In this document: piece after piece, positions 36,747 through 45,564 of the stretch
How the letters are laid out: each line of letters opens with the position of its first letter
Numbering within the stretch: position 1 is the stretch's first letter
Position numbers and translations under genes: made by a program
Notes under the pieces: model-generated
What the model was told of the DNA's origin: nothing
Databases searched by the model: none
Seen by the model: only the letters and a program-made list of their open reading frames with translations
Assembly (NCBI RefSeq): GCF_018449605.1
Contig: NZ_JAAVUW010000002.1
Span: forward strand, 1-64,000
Origin: Luteibacter sp. dw_328
Lineage (GTDB): Bacteria > Pseudomonadota > Gammaproteobacteria > Xanthomonadales > Rhodanobacteraceae
Reading direction: 5' to 3'
Length of the DNA stretch: 64,000 nt

Positions 36747-38099
36747 GTGGCAACCAACACCATCAATCTCGGCTCGAGCTCGATCGACGTCGCCGGCATC
36801 GTCAAGAATCTATCGGACAACAAGCGCAAGGCGACGGATAAGGCGCTGGCGAAGCTGGAAGATACGAACAAGACGAAGATATCCTCGGTAGGCAACTTCA
36901 CTGCGTCGCTGACGAACCTGCAGAAGGCGATCAAGTCCCTGTCGGATGGCTCGGCCTTCAAGGCGCACAAGACCTCGATCAGTGAGCCCACCGTGCTCTC
37001 AGCCGTGGCCGACCCCGATGCACGTGCCAACAACTACACCATCGAGGTGACCAGGCTGGCCGCCGCCCAGAAGACCACCTCCGTGGCGTTGGCCGGGGGC
37101 AAGGCAGCGGTGGGCACGGGCACGCTGACGATCGCTATCGGCGCCAGGTCGATGACCCTCGACGTCAAACCGCCGGCGAACTCGTTGGAGAACATCCGCG
37201 ACGCGATCAACAAGGCGCAGGGCAATCCCGGTGTCACGGCCAGCATCGTCACGGGCACGGACGGTGCGCACCTGACGTTGACCTCGGCATCGACCGGCAA
37301 GCAGAACGCATTCACGGTTTCCGCCAACGGCGACGCGGATCTCTCGCAACTCGCCTTCGACCCGGCGAAGGATACCGCGATCACCGCGGCGCAGGATGCC
37401 GAGTTCACCATCGACGGTAATACCAAGGCGACGAGTCCGACGAACACCGTCGCGTCGGCGATCGACGGCGTGACGCTCACGCTGACCAAGATCGGCACCA
37501 GCACGGTCGACATCCAGACCGATTCGAGTGCCGTCGCCACCAGCCTGAACTCGCTGGTCACCGCATACAACCAGTTCATCTCGACCTACCAGGCGCTGAC
37601 CAAGTACGACCAGACGAACCAGCAGGTCGGCGCGTTGATCGGCGACGCCACGGTGACGTCCATCAAGAGCCAGATCTCCACGCTGGTCGGTTCGAAGACA
37701 TCGGGGAACGCGGCAGGCCCGCACTCGTTGAGCGATCTCGGCGTGGCGTTCCAGCTCAACGGAACGTTGAAGTTCGATGGAACCAAGCTGACGAAGGTGC
37801 TCGCCACCTCTCCCGCGGAGACCCAGGAACTCCTCAGTGGCTCGCAGAGTGCCACCGTGAAGCTGGACAAGTTGATCACCGACTGGACCTCAACGAACGG
37901 CATCCTCAGTCAGCGCACGGCCAACCTCAACGCGCGCACCAAGGATATCGACAAGAAGCAGGCGAACTTCGAAATCACGATGCAGGCGTTCGTCGACCGC
38001 ACCACGAAGCAGTTCACTGCGCTGGATACCATGATGACCAAGCTCGGTAGTACCAGCAGCTACCTTCAGCAGCAGTTCGACGCCTTGTCGAAGAAGTGA
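36747..38099 (+). CDS. fliD: FliD-type flagellar cap protein (isolated gene)
   Basis: Predicted filament-capping protein that helps flagellin subunits assemble at the tip. The 450-residue product has the FliD N-terminal coiled-coil region (SSIDVAGIVKNLSDNKRKA, then a Lys-rich helix to about 70). The domain start YTIEVTRLAAAQ comes near residue 96, a Thr/Ala-rich variable middle follows, and a helical C-terminus ends in FDALSKK. GTG 36747 has AAGGAG at a good distance. No flagellar genes flank it, so it may be an extra or relocated copy. It lies in an insertion between tldD and yjgA. Confidence 0.87.
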   Translation: MATNTINLGSSSIDVAGIVKNLSDNKRKATDKALAKLEDTNKTKISSVGNFTASLTNLQKAIKSLSDGSAFKAHKTSISEPTVLSAVADPDARANNYTIEVTRLAAAQKTTSVALAGGKAAVGTGTLTIAIGARSMTLDVKPPANSLENIRDAINKAQGNPGVTASIVTGTDGAHLTLTSASTGKQNAFTVSANGDADLSQLAFDPAKDTAITAAQDAEFTIDGNTKATSPTNTVASAIDGVTLTLTKIGTSTVDIQTDSSAVATSLNSLVTAYNQFISTYQALTKYDQTNQQVGALIGDATVTSIKSQISTLVGSKTSGNAAGPHSLSDLGVAFQLNGTLKFDGTKLTKVLATSPAETQELLSGSQSATVKLDKLITDWTSTNGILSQRTANLNARTKDIDKKQANFEITMQAFVDRTTKQFTALDTMMTKLGSTSSYLQQQFDALSKK

Positions 38100-38211: not shown

Positions 38212-38439
38212 AACGCGAGCGTATGGTGGCGAAAGTCCTTGATAGGTGACCGCAAGGTATTGTGACTGTCATCAGTCAAGCGGATGATCCGCCGGCAGAC
38301 AGCGTATGGACGGCTAAATCCCTCCACTCACCTCGTATCGACAGCAGTACAGCCGGCAGCTCCTCCCGCCGGCTCGTGCCGTCGTGCGTGTTGCGAACGC
38401 GCTGTCCCTCAGCGGCTCTCACAGGGGGACCCCTACCCA

Positions 38440-41400
38440 ATGAAGACACACCCGATACTGCAACGCGGGGCGAACGGACGAGGGCGGCTGGCAAGCCTGC
38501 TCGCGGCCGTACTCCTTGGCGCGACGATGACCGCGCAGGCGGTCACCCTCGCGCCATCGGATCGCCAGGACATCAATCTCGGTGCACGACCCTGGAAATA
38601 CACCAAGCAGGCCGTGCAGAACCCGAATGACCCGGTCGTCTACGCACCGCTGCCCAATGGCGACGACGGTGCGATCCCGACCTTCAACGACAGCGCATGG
38701 CTGACCGTTGGTATTCCGCACGCTGCCAACGATTTCACCACTTTCATCAATCAGGAGTCTGGCGGCGGCCAGGGCAGCCTGGATGGTGAGACCAGTTGGT
38801 ATCGCGTCAAGCTCGACGACTCGGCGAAGTTCGCCGGCAAGAAAGTCATGGTCGAGTTCGAAGGCGCCCACACGGGTGACCGCGTCTACATCAACGGTCA
38901 TTTCGTTCCCGGTACGGGCGTGCTCAACCAGCCGGGCCAGCCGGATGCGAATGCCACCCACGTGATCGGCTTCCTGCCGCACATCGTGGACCTGACGCCC
39001 TTCCTCAAGTTCGACGGCAGCGACGTGCTGGCCGTGAAGGTCAGCCGCGGTGGTGGTGGCTTCTTCGAGGATCCCGGCTTTTCCGGTTCGTTCCGCTTCG
39101 GCCAGGCCGAAGCCGGCCTGTTCCGTCCGGTAAAGCTGCACGTGACCAACTTCGTGCACATCCCGGAGAACGTCTACGCGGGCCAGAACACCTGGGGCAC
39201 GTACGTCGGCACGCAGACCCTCAGCGCGGACCACACCACCGCGACGGTCAAAGTGCAGACCAACGTGGTGAACGAAACCAACGTCGCGAAGTCGGTGACC
39301 TTGACCACGCAGATCGTCGACGCCGACGGCAATGTGGTCAAGTCCGACCAGCAGCAGAAGACGTTGCCGCCGAACTTCGTGCCGAACAACGAAACGCCGG
39401 TGTTCGACGAAACCATCCAGGTGAGCAACCCGCACCTGTGGTATCCGAACAACAGCGTCAACGGCAAACCTTACCTGTACAAGGTGCTGCATACGGTAAG
39501 CATCGACGGCGTGGTGGTGGATGCAAAGCAGAGCACGCTCGGCATCCGTGTCATCACCTGGGATAAGGACTTCCCGTACGTCAACGGCGCGAAGCAATAC
39601 ATGTGGGGCGGCTCGGGCCGCTACGACTATCCCGCGCTCGGTTCGTCCGTGCCTGAGGAGCAGCAGTGGCGCGATCTGCAGCAGCTCGCTGCCGGTGGTG
39701 GCAATCTCTGGCGTCCGGGTCACTCCCCGTCCAGCCCCGAGTTCGTCGAGGCTGCGGATGCGCTGGGCGTGTTCATCGTGCAGCCCAGTGGCGATGGCGA
39801 GAACGGATTTGCCACGCCATGCAAGGCGGGCGACCAGCAGTGCAACGACATGTGGACGATCAAGCGCGAGGTCCATCGTGACATCGTGATCCGCGATCGC
39901 AGCCATCCGTCGATCCTGGCGTGGGAGCACGACAATGGCGTGATGTCGACGCCGTTTGCCGTCGAGCTTCGCGCGCTGGCCCGGACCTGGGACAGCATCA
40001 ATCCCCGCGCCGCCGCCGACCGCACGCCGGACGCCGCCAACGGCGATATCCTCAGCTGCTCGAAGGCCGGTTGCGAAACCTACCTGCACTCGAACGAATT
40101 TCCGAACAAGCCCGCCTGGGGCGCGGAATACTGGGGTCCGGGCACGCTGCGTCACTCGTACGATTACGAGCTGGCCTTTGCGCTGAACTACCTCGTGCCT
40201 TACTCGCAGGCCCGCAAGGTCGGCACGTTCGGCATGGCCCAGTGGTACATGTCCGACACGCCGGGTGAAGTCATCGAGATGGTCGAAGGCCTCGAGGACG
40301 CGACGCACTGGGCTTACCAGAAGAACCCGGACGGCAGCATCGCGACGCATCCGGACGGCAAGCCGATCAAGGGTTTCCGCCACAACGTCCGCGGCAACAA
40401 CGCGTCGATGACCGATGCGAACCGTTTCCCGCGCATGCTGTACTACGTGTACGAGTCTGTCTGGGTGCCCTACGACCTGCGTCCGGTCGTCAAGCTGGCC
40501 AACACCTGGAATCGCACGGGCGACATCCAGGTCAACGCCTTCAGCAACTGCCCGGCCGTTCGCCTGCTAGTCAATGGCGTACCGCAGGGCAGCGACCAGG
40601 TGCCGAACCGCTGGGACACGATCGACGACGCCTCGTACGCCGTCGAGAACGGTCCCACGGACGAAGACACCGGCAAGATCGTCGGTTCCGACAAGGCGCA
40701 GGCCACCACGAAGCTGCCGGGCCAGGTGCACTGGAACGTCACGTGGAAGGCGGGCACCGCGACCGCGCAGTGCATCGACGCACTGGGTAGCGTGCGTACC
40801 GGTGCCGACGGGCAGCCCGTGGCGGATACACTGACCACGGCCGGCAAGGCCGATCACATCGAACTCGATGTCGTGCCGAACGTCGTCAAGCCGGACGGCA
40901 CCACCTTCCAGGTGACAGCCAACGGTTCGGATGCCGCTTTCATCGTTGCCAAGGTCGTCGATGCGAACAACGTCGTCGTGCCGGATGCCGCGCAGAAGGT
41001 GACCTTCGAAGTGACTAGTGGCGCGTCGATCGTGACGTACCAGGGTGGCACGCAGCAGTACGTCGATTACAGCGCCGGCGAAATGCCGGACAACAATGGC
41101 GGTATTGCCGAGCCGATCCACAGCTATCACTCGCCGGGTTCGCCGGAACTGCAGTTCGAGGGCGGTCTGCAGAAGATCGCTCTGCGCTCGAAGTTCACGC
41201 CGGGCCAGGTGACGGTGACCGCTACGGCACCGGGCCTCACGGCTGGCTCCGCCACGTTCGCTATCGTCAATGTGCCGGCGCCGCCGACCGCGTCGGGTCC
41301 GCCCTCGATCATTGCCCAGCCGATCGAGCAGGACATTACCGAAGGTGACGTTGGCCACTTCTCCGTGACCGCTTCCGGCACGCCGCCGCTGAGCTTCACC

Positions 41401-44400
41401 TGGAAGAAGAATGGCGTGGAAATTCCGGGTGCGACGAGTGCGAGCTACGTCACCCCGGCCTCGACGCGTGGCGACGACGGCGCGAGCTATACCGTGGTCG
41501 TGCACGGCCAGGGTCCCGATCAGGAATCCAGTGCCGCCGCGCTCAAGGTCTTCGCCTTCAGCCAGGTGGTTGTCCGCACACAGCCCGTTGCTCAGAACGT
41601 GGATGCAGGCCAGCAGGCCCACTTCCAGGTCGTGGCCGACGGTTCGCCGACGCTCACCTACCAGTGGATGAAGGGCGCGTCGGCCATTCCGGGTGCAAAC
41701 GGTACGAGCTACGACACGCCGACGCTGAGTGTCGCCGACGGCAATGTCGACTACTCGGTTGTCATCAGCAACTTCGGCAGCTCGGTACCATCGCAGGCGG
41801 CTCATCTGACGGTTAATCAGCCTCGCCCGCCGGTGTTCACCGGTACGCTGGCCGACGTTCGTGCGAACCCGGGCCAGCCGGCGACGTTCGATGTGTCGAC
41901 GCTGGTGGCCGGGACCTCTCCGTTCCACTACAAGTGGTCGGTCGGTGGCGTGGCAGTCGGCGATGACCTGCCGACGCTTACTATTCCGTCCGTGCAGCAG
42001 AGCGATATCGGCACGTACACCGTCACGGTGACCAACATCACCGGCGTGGTGGCAACGACGACAGCCAAGCTCACGCTGGCTCCGCCGGGTGCGAACCTCG
42101 CCCGTGAAAAAGTGACGCTCGCCTCGCAGGTGCAGGACGTGAACGGTACCGCCGCCTGGCAGGCCGTCGACGGCGACGGAACCACGCGCTGGGGTTCGCA
42201 GATCGGTGACGACAACGCATACATCACCGTCGATCTCGGCTCGTCGCGCACGTTCAACCGTGTCGTGCTGAAGTGGGAAAACGCCCACGCCACCGAGTAC
42301 AAGATCCAGTATTCGGACGATCCGAACACGGGTTTCCAGGATGCGTACCACACCGATACCAGCACCGGCGGCACGGAGGATTTCACCTTCGACCACCCGG
42401 TGAAGGGTCGCTACGTGCGCATGCAGGGCATCCACCGTGCCACGGATTACGGCTACTCGTTGTATGAGTTCGAGGTCTACAACTCGGCGGGTTGCTGTGC
42501 CGTCACGGACCGCTACACCTCCGCGACCGGTTCGAACCTGGTAACGGATAACCTGAGCGGCCTGCAGTGGGATCGCGTGCAGCGTGGCTTCCTCGACCAG
42601 GGTGCGCAGTTCACGCAGTCGGTTGCCATCCAGGAATGCGCGAAGGACGGCATGCGCCTGCCAACCGTCGACGAAGCACTGGCCATCAGCGGCCAGAGCT
42701 ACTCGAGCGAAGCGTTCCCGGGTGCTTGGAATACGTGGACGGACGGTCAGGATCCGACGGATTCGACCTTTGCCTTCCAGGTGAGCTCGCTGGGTGATGT
42801 CCGCCGCGAAGTGGCGGAAAACAACCCGGGCCACGTGCTCTGCGTGAAGGGCACCAAGGTGGTAGCTCCGACCATTACCGCCCAGCCCACCAACCAGACC
42901 GCTGGTGTGGGTCGTTCCGCACCCTTCACCGTGACGGCGACGGGTGTCGGTCCGCTCAGCTACGACTGGTACACCGTGACCAAGGACGCGAACGACCAGG
43001 ACGTGCTCACGTTCGTGTCGAGCACGGCCGACGGCAAGTACGCCACGCGCGCCCTCACGGCCGCCCAGAATGGGACCGTCTACCGCGTCAATGTCGTCAG
43101 TGCGCAAGGCCTCACCACCGCGAGCAACAACGTGTTGTTGACGGTCGACAACTCCAACGCCGGTAACGATCCGCCGACGTGGGCCGGTCCGGTCACGCAG
43201 CCGAACAACGGCGGTGGCAACGACAACGGTGGCGGCAATCCGCCCAGCCCGGGTACGCCGGGTGACGGCAAGGGTGGCGTGAACATCGCCATCGGTGCCA
43301 CGGCATCGTCGTCCTACACGACGGAGCGTCCGGATCTCAATCCCGGTGCGGCCATCGATGGCGACTTCACCACCCGTTGGGGTTCCGTGCAGAAGCAGGA
43401 TCCGGTCGACCTGATCGTGGACTTCGGTACGCCGAAGAGCTTCGACCACGTGATCATGCGCTGGGAAAATGCGTCTTCGGCCCAGTACACCATCGACATC
43501 TCCGACGATGGCAAGGCATGGAACACGATCGTGGGTCCGGTCGTCGGCAAGGGCGGCGTGGACACGCAGACGTTCGCGGTGCAGACCTCGCGCTTCGTCC
43601 GCATGAACAGCCTGAAGCGCAACACCGACTACGGCGTCTCGATGTTCGAGTTCGAGGTTTACGCTGCCTCGGCCCCGACCATCGTCGGCCAGCCACAGTC
43701 GCAGAGCGTGACGGCAGGGCAGGCGGTGAACTTCACCGTCGGCGTCAAGGCCAATGGAACGGTCGGTTACCAGTGGCGCCGCAACAGTGCCTCGATCGCC
43801 GGTGCCACCCAGGCCAGCCTCGGCTTCACGGCCGCGGTCGCCGACGCGGGTAACTACGACGTGGTCGTCACCGACACGGCGGGTCGTACCGCTACGAGTC
43901 AGGCCGCGACGCTCACCGTGCAGCAGCCGGCCGCTCCGCAGCAGCCGGTGTCGGGCACGAGCAACCTCGCCCTGAACCGTCCGGTGGTCGCTTCGGATTC
44001 GGAGAATCCGGTGGCGTTCAAGCCGGGCAACGTCAACGATGGCGATGCAGGCACGCGTTGGTCGTCCGGCTTCACCGATGACCAGTGGATCGAGGTGGAT
44101 CTCGGTTCGGTCAAGCTGGTGAACAAGGTCGTGCTCAACTGGGAGAACGCGCACGCCACGTCGTACGCGATCGAAGTGTCGACCGACCACAAAACCTGGC
44201 AGACGGCGGATGCGAATCCGGCAAGCACGGGTGGCGTGGAAACGCGCACGTTCACGCCGGTTTCGGCGCAGTACGTGCGCATGCATGGCATCAAGCGCAG
44301 CACGCAGTACGGTTACTCGCTGTGGGAGCTCGAGGTCTACGGTACCGACGGCGGTGGCACGACCCCGACGCAGCCGACCAACCCCGGTTCCAACGATCCG

Positions 44401-45564
44401 TCGCAGGGCTTCGATTACTCGGTGTATCCGGGCTTCATCGGCACCCAGCTGCGCAACACGACCAATGGCAAGTGGGCCGACGACAAGGTGTACGTCGCGG
44501 TGATCGGTCGCGATCCGAAGACGAACGTGTTCTCGTGGGTCAAGCCGGATGGCACGATCGCGCCGCTCGCGGTTGAGGACAACGACGGCAACGGCCACCT
44601 GACCAAGAACGGCCAGAACTATCCGAACTACTTCTTCACGCTGGCGCAGTCCAAGCTGCTCCTGCTGCCGAAGCTGGATTCGGGTCGCATCTTCGTCTCG
44701 GTCGGTGAACCGATGTACATCAAGGTGCTCAAGGCCGCCGACAACTCGATCGGCTTCGCGGGCCCCAATCCGCTCAACGGCACCGATCCGAACATCGGCG
44801 TCTACTACGACTGGTACGAGTTCACCTGGAACGACAACGCTATCTTCATCAACACGACGCAGGTGGATCAGTTCTCCATCCCGCTCGCGCTCGATGTGTT
44901 CGGCGGCAACAAGACCCGTCACGTGTCGTCCGGCATCACGCAGACGCGCGCGCAGATCTTCGCGCAGTACAATCAGGAAGTGCCGGCCGAGTTCGCGCTG
45001 ACCCAGGCGGATCCGGTCCGGATCCTCGCTCCCGGCAAGGATCAGTTCGACGTCGGCAAGCCGCAGGAGCATTACTTCGACAGCTACATCGACGATTCCT
45101 GGACGTACTACCAGAACCACGTGCTTGAGATGACCATCGGTGCCAAGCAGTTCGAAGGAACCGTGGTCAACGGTGTACTGACCTTCACTCACACGAACTG
45201 GGCGGATACGCACGAAGCGGACGAGCCGGAAGGCATGCTCTTCAACGTGCAGAAGCCGACCACGCAGGACGTGCTGGAAGGCAAGGGCAACCTGGCTCGC
45301 TCTAGCGACCCCTGGGGCGTGGAAGGCCAGCTGGAGGCGCAGATCTGCGCAGCGTTCAACCGCCACGTGATGGAAGACACCACGCAGTGGAAGGATGCCT
45401 CTTCGTTCTACCTGCAGTCGCCGGCGAACTACTACTCGCGTTTCTGGCACCTGCACGGCGTGAACGGCAAGGCCTATGGCTTCGCGTACGACGATGTATC
45501 CGACCAGAGCTCGACGTTGATCGAGACGCAGCCGGAACATCTCGAACTCGGGATCGGTTGGTAA
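38440..45564 (+). CDS. Giant secreted GH2-like/Ig/F5-8C/GH64 beta-1,3-glucanase fusion
   Basis: A 2374-residue exported protein. In order: signal peptide (to about 34); GH2-type sugar-binding, Ig-like and TIM-barrel regions (about 38-700) and a beta-rich extension to 945; three Ig-like modules (about 947-1217); discoidin-like F5/8C module 1 (1218-1349); a DUF1566-like module with several Cys (1350-1475); Ig module 4 (1476-1574); a Gly/Asn/Pro linker; F5/8C module 2 (1613-1742); Ig module 5 (1745-1829); F5/8C module 3 (1840-1969); and a GH64 domain (about 1988-2374). The GH64 pair is probably E2127 (YDWYEFTWND) and D2143 (TTQVDQF), with the 16-residue spacing known in that family. The GH2 nucleophile may be E563 (WGAEYWG), but the acid/base Glu seems replaced by G500 (WEHDNG). 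It likely binds and cleaves fungal or plant beta-1,3-glucan. Confidence 0.85.
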   Translation: MKTHPILQRGANGRGRLASLLAAVLLGATMTAQAVTLAPSDRQDINLGARPWKYTKQAVQNPNDPVVYAPLPNGDDGAIPTFNDSAWLTVGIPHAANDFTTFINQESGGGQGSLDGETSWYRVKLDDSAKFAGKKVMVEFEGAHTGDRVYINGHFVPGTGVLNQPGQPDANATHVIGFLPHIVDLTPFLKFDGSDVLAVKVSRGGGGFFEDPGFSGSFRFGQAEAGLFRPVKLHVTNFVHIPENVYAGQNTWGTYVGTQTLSADHTTATVKVQTNVVNETNVAKSVTLTTQIVDADGNVVKSDQQQKTLPPNFVPNNETPVFDETIQVSNPHLWYPNNSVNGKPYLYKVLHTVSIDGVVVDAKQSTLGIRVITWDKDFPYVNGAKQYMWGGSGRYDYPALGSSVPEEQQWRDLQQLAAGGGNLWRPGHSPSSPEFVEAADALGVFIVQPSGDGENGFATPCKAGDQQCNDMWTIKREVHRDIVIRDRSHPSILAWEHDNGVMSTPFAVELRALARTWDSINPRAAADRTPDAANGDILSCSKAGCETYLHSNEFPNKPAWGAEYWGPGTLRHSYDYELAFALNYLVPYSQARKVGTFGMAQWYMSDTPGEVIEMVEGLEDATHWAYQKNPDGSIATHPDGKPIKGFRHNVRGNNASMTDANRFPRMLYYVYESVWVPYDLRPVVKLANTWNRTGDIQVNAFSNCPAVRLLVNGVPQGSDQVPNRWDTIDDASYAVENGPTDEDTGKIVGSDKAQATTKLPGQVHWNVTWKAGTATAQCIDALGSVRTGADGQPVADTLTTAGKADHIELDVVPNVVKPDGTTFQVTANGSDAAFIVAKVVDANNVVVPDAAQKVTFEVTSGASIVTYQGGTQQYVDYSAGEMPDNNGGIAEPIHSYHSPGSPELQFEGGLQKIALRSKFTPGQVTVTATAPGLTAGSATFAIVNVPAPPTASGPPSIIAQPIEQDITEGDVGHFSVTASGTPPLSFTWKKNGVEIPGATSASYVTPASTRGDDGASYTVVVHGQGPDQESSAAALKVFAFSQVVVRTQPVAQNVDAGQQAHFQVVADGSPTLTYQWMKGASAIPGANGTSYDTPTLSVADGNVDYSVVISNFGSSVPSQAAHLTVNQPRPPVFTGTLADVRANPGQPATFDVSTLVAGTSPFHYKWSVGGVAVGDDLPTLTIPSVQQSDIGTYTVTVTNITGVVATTTAKLTLAPPGANLAREKVTLASQVQDVNGTAAWQAVDGDGTTRWGSQIGDDNAYITVDLGSSRTFNRVVLKWENAHATEYKIQYSDDPNTGFQDAYHTDTSTGGTEDFTFDHPVKGRYVRMQGIHRATDYGYSLYEFEVYNSAGCCAVTDRYTSATGSNLVTDNLSGLQWDRVQRGFLDQGAQFTQSVAIQECAKDGMRLPTVDEALAISGQSYSSEAFPGAWNTWTDGQDPTDSTFAFQVSSLGDVRREVAENNPGHVLCVKGTKVVAPTITAQPTNQTAGVGRSAPFTVTATGVGPLSYDWYTVTKDANDQDVLTFVSSTADGKYATRALTAAQNGTVYRVNVVSAQGLTTASNNVLLTVDNSNAGNDPPTWAGPVTQPNNGGGNDNGGGNPPSPGTPGDGKGGVNIAIGATASSSYTTERPDLNPGAAIDGDFTTRWGSVQKQDPVDLIVDFGTPKSFDHVIMRWENASSAQYTIDISDDGKAWNTIVGPVVGKGGVDTQTFAVQTSRFVRMNSLKRNTDYGVSMFEFEVYAASAPTIVGQPQSQSVTAGQAVNFTVGVKANGTVGYQWRRNSASIAGATQASLGFTAAVADAGNYDVVVTDTAGRTATSQAATLTVQQPAAPQQPVSGTSNLALNRPVVASDSENPVAFKPGNVNDGDAGTRWSSGFTDDQWIEVDLGSVKLVNKVVLNWENAHATSYAIEVSTDHKTWQTADANPASTGGVETRTFTPVSAQYVRMHGIKRSTQYGYSLWELEVYGTDGGGTTPTQPTNPGSNDPSQGFDYSVYPGFIGTQLRNTTNGKWADDKVYVAVIGRDPKTNVFSWVKPDGTIAPLAVEDNDGNGHLTKNGQNYPNYFFTLAQSKLLLLPKLDSGRIFVSVGEPMYIKVLKAADNSIGFAGPNPLNGTDPNIGVYYDWYEFTWNDNAIFINTTQVDQFSIPLALDVFGGNKTRHVSSGITQTRAQIFAQYNQEVPAEFALTQADPVRILAPGKDQFDVGKPQEHYFDSYIDDSWTYYQNHVLEMTIGAKQFEGTVVNGVLTFTHTNWADTHEADEPEGMLFNVQKPTTQDVLEGKGNLARSSDPWGVEGQLEAQICAAFNRHVMEDTTQWKDASSFYLQSPANYYSRFWHLHGVNGKAYGFAYDDVSDQSSTLIETQPEHLELGIGW

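Follow-up and report, generated by a model that had tools for sequence, protein, structure and literature searches.

Beta-1,3-glucanases of family GH64 (PDB 5h4e, 9vp9, 5h9x and LPHase, 3gd0) are the closest described relatives of the C-terminal domain of a 2374-residue protein of Luteibacter sp. dw_328, whose gene lies in a 64,000-nucleotide stretch of DNA (the window; contig NZ_JAAVUW010000002.1, positions 1 to 64,000). They match it over the length of the domain and carry the same Glu/Asp pair in the same columns; unlike them, the window's GH64 domain is fused behind a GH2-type half, and its Asp is replaced by Asn in 15 copies from a sister clade. For the GH2 half, the best PDB match, both by sequence and by Foldseek, is 6hpd, which shares the absence of the Asn-Glu (NE) motif and has WEGGNW instead; however, the identity is 29%, and 6hpd is absent from the PDB matches of the GH64 domain. 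GalA/GalB-type GH2 beta-galactosidases (NCBIfam NF041462 and NF041463) resemble the same half over residues 76-519 and in overall fold, but the window protein reaches 212 bits against a cut-off of 900 and its acid/base residue is absent. The third discoidin-type (F5/8C) module resembles the CBM32 domains DD1 and DD2 of a Paenibacillus chitosanase/glucanase (4zxe, 4zy9, 4zz5), at 5e-32 in the best case, whereas the window protein has three F5/8C copies scattered among immunoglobulin (Ig)-like modules, and sugar binding by them is predicted.

The gene occupies positions 38440-45564 (+) as a single uninterrupted frame from an ATG at 38440. The reading frame stays open upstream, with a further ATG at 38284, and the start at 38440 is a choice. 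A frame or assembly artefact is ruled out by long stop-free frames in 34 genomes. The protein is interpreted here as a wall-directed GH64 glucanase in Luteibacter, with a GH2 half acting in recognition, and as a non-hydrolytic binder in the sister clade, a joint reading to which a probability of about 0.5 is assigned. It is built on domains, residue patterns, phylogeny and purifying selection, from which secretion, targets, activities and binding are predicted. The features that carry it are as follows.

38551..41274, +: GH2-type half, residues 38-945, with two beta-sandwiches, TIM barrel, DUF4982 and GH2_C5 (Pfam, PDB sequence matches, model)
39043..39045, +: S202, Asp in 13/13 stand-alone GH2s (16 chain rows: S 12, A 2, E 2)
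39619..39621, +: R394, His in 13/13 stand-alone GH2s (R in 16/16 chain rows and in 34/34 in another comparison)
39922..39939, +: WEHDNG, residues 495-500, with G500 and not Glu at the GH2 acid/base position (36 copies)
40126..40128, +: E563, GH2 nucleophile position, kept (copies; predicted strand in the model)
44407..45561, +: GH64 domain, residues 1990-2374 (Pfam; PDB 5h4e at 6.1e-89 with the domain as query)
44818..44820, +: E2127, equivalent of LPHase E154 (alignment; E in 36/36 copies)
44866..44868, +: D2143, equivalent of LPHase D170, Asn in the sister clade (D 21/21, N 15/15)

Catalytic positions of the GH64 and GH2 halves

The GH64 domain is recognised strongly by Pfam (2.3e-81 over residues 2002-2370; 274 bits against a cut-off of 27), and in a search with the whole protein the leading PDB matches were 5h4e for GH64 (2.3e-87) and 6hpd for GH2 (9.4e-51). 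In the alignment, E2127 and D2143 occupy the column pair of the catalytic residues of LPHase 3gd0, in agreement with the original prediction, which had placed them at the catalytic spacing of the family and would have been undone by the lack of any GH64 match. The E154/D170 pair of LPHase is described as its catalytic acid-base pair in a passage of PMC4758615. The structure 5h9y has Ala in the Glu column and is otherwise near-identical to 5h9x, so that this Ala looks like a deliberate mutant.

Both residues are kept in all 21 Luteibacter and G123 copies of the chain and in the 16 stand-alone GH64s found in the family. In the sister clade, formed by the genera g8 and g22, the pair is broken: E is kept and D is changed to N in 15/15 copies. 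Of the GH64 columns, 45 show no variation in the 37 other sequences, and of these only D2143 and V2242 are changed in all 15 sister copies (an earlier comparison, with one row cut, gave 33 invariant columns). Since these copies form a single clade in the tree (support 100/100), the substitution is most simply explained by a single event on the stem. Three g8 genomes (G090, G095 and G100) also encode, separately from the Asn-form chain, a stand-alone GH64 in which both E and D are preserved (L143, L148 and L144, respectively).

The GH2 half was modelled from 16 copies of the chain together with 13 stand-alone GH2s, and residues 37-847 adopt a GH2 fold in the model, with a predicted local distance difference test score of 84.3 and a predicted template modelling score of 0.90. 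The alignment with its top Foldseek match, 6hpd (1.1e-53), spans 660 residues at 2.3 A, and the 50 rows of each structure listing carry the titles beta-galactosidase, beta-glucuronidase, beta-galacturonidase, beta-glycosidase, GH2 or glycoside hydrolase. Pfam and the model both give the GH2 domain order with a TIM barrel; Glyco_hydro_2 (9.1e-15), the barrel (2.2e-6), DUF4982 (3.9e-6) and GH2_C5 (8e-13) are over their cut-offs, and GH2_N (6e-5) is under its own.

GH2 enzymes carry an Asn-Glu (NE) motif in which the Glu is the acid/base. At this site the chain has W-E-x-[DN]-N-G, with W495, E496, N499 and G500 in 36/36 copies, and the Glu expected after the Asn is thus absent from every one of them. 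The nucleophile-position E563 is also found in 36/36 and is nearly invariant over chain and stand-alone rows together. NE is present in all 13 stand-alone GH2s, at the aligned column in ten of them and one residue further on in the other three (L104, L055 and L057, with WE..LNE). These 13 comprise eight from the family and five from wider searches, further family matches being left out. When the 16 chain rows were compared with them over columns in which at least 12 of the 13 agree (column 500 is not flagged, because of the three with a later NE), 36 conserved columns were kept across all chain rows, including R425, H428 and W602, and six were lost in 16/16 (178, 202, 379, 394, 403 and 656). 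Of these, four are fixed in 13/13 stand-alone GH2s, namely 202 D, 394 H, 403 A and 656 G; columns 202 and 394 we take to correspond to galactose-contacting residues of Escherichia coli LacZ. A passage of PMC5145203 names the two glutamates of a GH2 enzyme that serve as acid/base and as nucleophile. By its fold and sequence the GH2 half is placed with GH2, but not as a canonical enzyme of that family, and the working GH2 enzyme implied by the original prediction is not what the acid/base position and the other changed columns indicate.

Both halves are under purifying selection and neither is decaying. In 17 Luteibacter copies (136 pairs), the median pairwise ratio of nonsynonymous to synonymous substitution rates (dN/dS, NG86) was 0.18 for the GH2 barrel, 0.17 for GH64 and 0.185 for the GH2 sandwich region. 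In the 15 copies of the g8/g22 clade, the corresponding medians were 0.043, 0.087 and 0.071, from 96-99 usable of 105 pairs and with dS near 0.85 (in both groups the pairs are not independent); the barrel and GH64 values indicate that both halves are maintained in the sister clade.

Distribution of the chain in the family and beyond

The original prediction knew of no other chain joining GH2 and GH64, but this one is not a one-off: 36 copies were found in 34 genomes of four genera, all in one family. Each was read for the residue counts given above, with the copy of G021 cut at its end in that comparison. Within Luteibacter, 18 of 23 genomes encode the chain in one open frame, with two copies each in G004 and G015, and no chain was found in the other five (G011, G012, which is 80% complete, G017, G018 and G022). 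In the family (233 genomes) it was further found in g8 (13 genomes), g22 (two) and g15 (one). A contig scan for the GH2 half returned eight named loci, every one from Luteibacter; the scan relied on exact matches to short window peptides, which makes it insensitive to distant relatives. Outside the family, no chain-length match was obtained in 398 genomes of the order and 398 of the phylum (E 1e-40) or in 276 of the class (1e-10), samples that overlap and lie within one phylum. The few matches there were shorter frames of 788-1460 residues. GH64 was detected in 3 of the 398 phylum genomes, with a giant frame in the window's case only.

Two Luteibacter genomes carry more than the single chain. 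G015 (L061) and G004 (L062) hold a second, diverged full chain with 58-59% identity over residues 1-1827, and each also holds a separate discoidin-GH64 gene, pointing to amplification. In the tree, these stand-alone discoidin-GH64 genes branch from among the chain copies of Luteibacter, and this nesting suggests that they arose from the chain. An ancestral state with separate halves in the genus is consequently unsupported, and the outcome that was to count against the original prediction, separate genes with an unrelated role, was not encountered. The tree places the stand-alone GH64 of G008 (L063) outside the chains, though with weak support (85/41).

Linking modules and gene surroundings

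Between and before the two halves, the remaining features of the protein are the following.

38440..38544, +: Sec-type signal-peptide-like start, residues 1-35 (judged by eye from sequence alone)
41296..42087, +: Ig-like modules 1-3, residues about 953-1216, boundaries approximate (Pfam Ig_3/I-set; motif starts)
42088..42480, +: F5/8C module 1, residues 1217-1347, WENA motif (Pfam; motif; profile)
42538..42846, +: Lcl_C (DUF1566)-like module, residues 1367-1469 (Pfam 2e-4, below cut-off)
42859..43149, +: Ig-like module 4, residues about 1474-1570, boundaries approximate (Pfam; motif starts)
43276..43665, +: F5/8C module 2, residues 1613-1742, WENA motif (Pfam; motif; profile)
43666..43929, +: Ig-like module 5, residues about 1743-1830, boundaries approximate (Pfam; PDB match; motif starts)
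43957..44343, +: F5/8C module 3, residues 1840-1968, nearest solved relatives chitosan-binding CBM32 (PDB 4zy9, 4zxe)

Pfam finds F5/8C in three stretches (1.4e-63, 213 bits) and Ig_3 in five (1.3e-31), so the length, coordinates and domain list first read from the letters were borne out by Pfam and PDB matches. The exception in degree is the DUF1566-like module: a Lcl_C match is present, but at 22.1 bits it does not reach the curated cut-off of 34.9, and the match in the relative L069 (2.8e-7) is likewise below it. The repeated F5/8C motifs (WENA and VRM..) are also present as first described, and the matches of module 3 to DD1 and DD2 of the Paenibacillus enzyme (4zy9, 5e-32; 4zxe, 2.2e-31) take in the WExA and VRMxG..R..YGYSLWE stretches. 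A passage of PMC9146327 is in line with a chitosan-type specificity.

Counted with a profile of the three window modules, 18 of the 21 Luteibacter-type copies have three F5/8C modules and the other three (G013, G004b and G015b) have two, and each of the 15 sister-clade copies has exactly one, with WENA. At least one WExA-type discoidin module is thus found in each of the 36 copies, and the loss of these modules in the sister clade, suggested by a narrow pattern, proved wrong. In L069, the sister copy scanned with Pfam, one F5/8C module is accompanied by fn3 in three stretches and malectin in two. The sister clade therefore has a different module set in which the discoidin module is retained.

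Gene surroundings were compared across 12 Luteibacter genomes at 13 loci of the main copy, G007 contributing two. At all but one of them (12 loci, 11 genomes) tldD flanks the gene on one side and darP-pmbA on the other, which is also the arrangement in the window; the exception, the G013 locus (L077), lacks tldD, darP and pmbA as neighbours, as do the second copies L061 and L062. A polysaccharide-utilisation cluster was considered and rejected for Luteibacter, where the neighbours are tldD, darP and pmbA. Four loci from other genera (L069, L072, L074 and L053) have differing neighbours; in L072 a GDSL-type acylhydrolase adjoins the chain, and a major facilitator superfamily sugar transporter lies about 4 kb away. 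A 705-residue protein with an eCIS_core domain (3.6e-30) is encoded at L069:4451-6565 (-), adjacent to the chain that G097 carries in the sister clade. In the window, a FliD-like gene (FliD_N and FliD_C; 36747-38096, +) stands between tldD and the giant gene. At the threshold used it was matched in L085 only among the 13 Luteibacter loci, and its distribution is thus patchy; it appears to be an orphan flagellar-cap-like gene.

Proposed wall recognition and competing explanations

The protein is real and conserved, and it is most likely wall-directed. It would act as a secreted multimodular protein directed at fungal (or similar) walls, in which the Luteibacter GH64 domain most likely cuts beta-1,3-glucan, the CBM32-like discoidin modules would carry GH64 to the wall and may bind chitosan or related sugars, and the Ig modules would serve as spacers. 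The GH2 fold is most likely non-hydrolytic by the usual mechanism, because the canonical acid/base is lost, and its kept nucleophile-side pocket most likely binds sugar, making this half a large recognition module. In the sister lineage (g8, g22) the GH64 Asp is lost as well, for which reason the whole chain is most likely a non-hydrolytic binder of glucan or wall. The type II secretion pseudopilin T2SSG is over its cut-off in the source genome (5.05 Mb), and the protein may plausibly be secreted by this route. Of the fungal or oomycete target predicted originally, the fungal part is a plausible inference, given the closeness of module 3 to chitosan binders and the endohyphal life of Luteibacter. 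Luteibacter strains that inhabit hyphae of Ascomycota are described in passages of PMC11165876 and PMC9040847.

Several observations weigh against this interpretation. No sugar-uptake cluster adjoins the gene in the Luteibacter loci compared, and T2SSL is below its cut-off in the source genome. Moreover, 6hpd, the closest solved GH2, has no NE motif and yet is titled beta-glucuronidase; if it is active, loss of the acid/base Glu need not mean a dead site, and no paper on its activity was recognised in literature searches. A working enzyme with changed chemistry would likewise give purifying selection.

The comparison with 6hpd favours an active GH2 half of altered chemistry, in which another carboxylate (such as E496) or the substrate gives the proton, and side groups such as uronic acids are trimmed while GH64 cuts the backbone. 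The invariance of E496 and E563 in 36/36, the presence of R394 in 34/34 and the retention of R425, H428 and W602 in all 16 chain and 13 stand-alone rows are consistent with it. However, a Glu after the W is also found in the NE-keeping L104, L055 and L057 and is therefore no new substitute, and columns 202, 394, 403 and 656, fixed in the stand-alone enzymes, are changed in 16/16 chain rows. We regard this explanation as possible but doubtful; for the GH2 half, recognition without cleavage, or else cleavage through a different chemistry, is probable. A broader scenario, which is fairly unlikely, would have a glycosidase pair leaving catalysis stepwise in fungus-associated bacteria: GH2 would have gone first, in the common ancestor, leaving a site with a nucleophile alone, able to recognise a wall sugar or to remodel it slowly, and the GH64 Asp later in one lineage, giving a giant hyphal-attachment lectin assembled from two former enzymes.

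A non-fungal target, such as plant callose, algal laminarin or bacterial exopolysaccharide, with GH64 used for nutrition, appears unlikely. GH64 acts on beta-1,3-glucan whatever its origin, and five of the 23 Luteibacter genomes, including one that is 80% complete, lack the chain, two points that would suit such a role, but the likeness of module 3 to chitosan binders fits fungal walls better than callose. An ordinary bifunctional enzyme, with a classical GH2 glycosidase beside the GH64 glucanase, would agree with the strong family matches of both halves, but it is very improbable with the acid/base Glu gone in 36/36 copies.

The recognition of fungal walls by bacteria, and their entry into them, are poorly known outside a few symbioses. 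The chain, present in 18 of 23 genomes of a genus with endohyphal members, is a direct candidate for knock-out and is probably wall-directed. The clade in which D is changed to N, standing beside an intact clade, offers a natural experiment in which a glucanase would have turned into a binder, and the GH2 half provides a well-sampled case for the role of GH2 domains without the acid/base residue.
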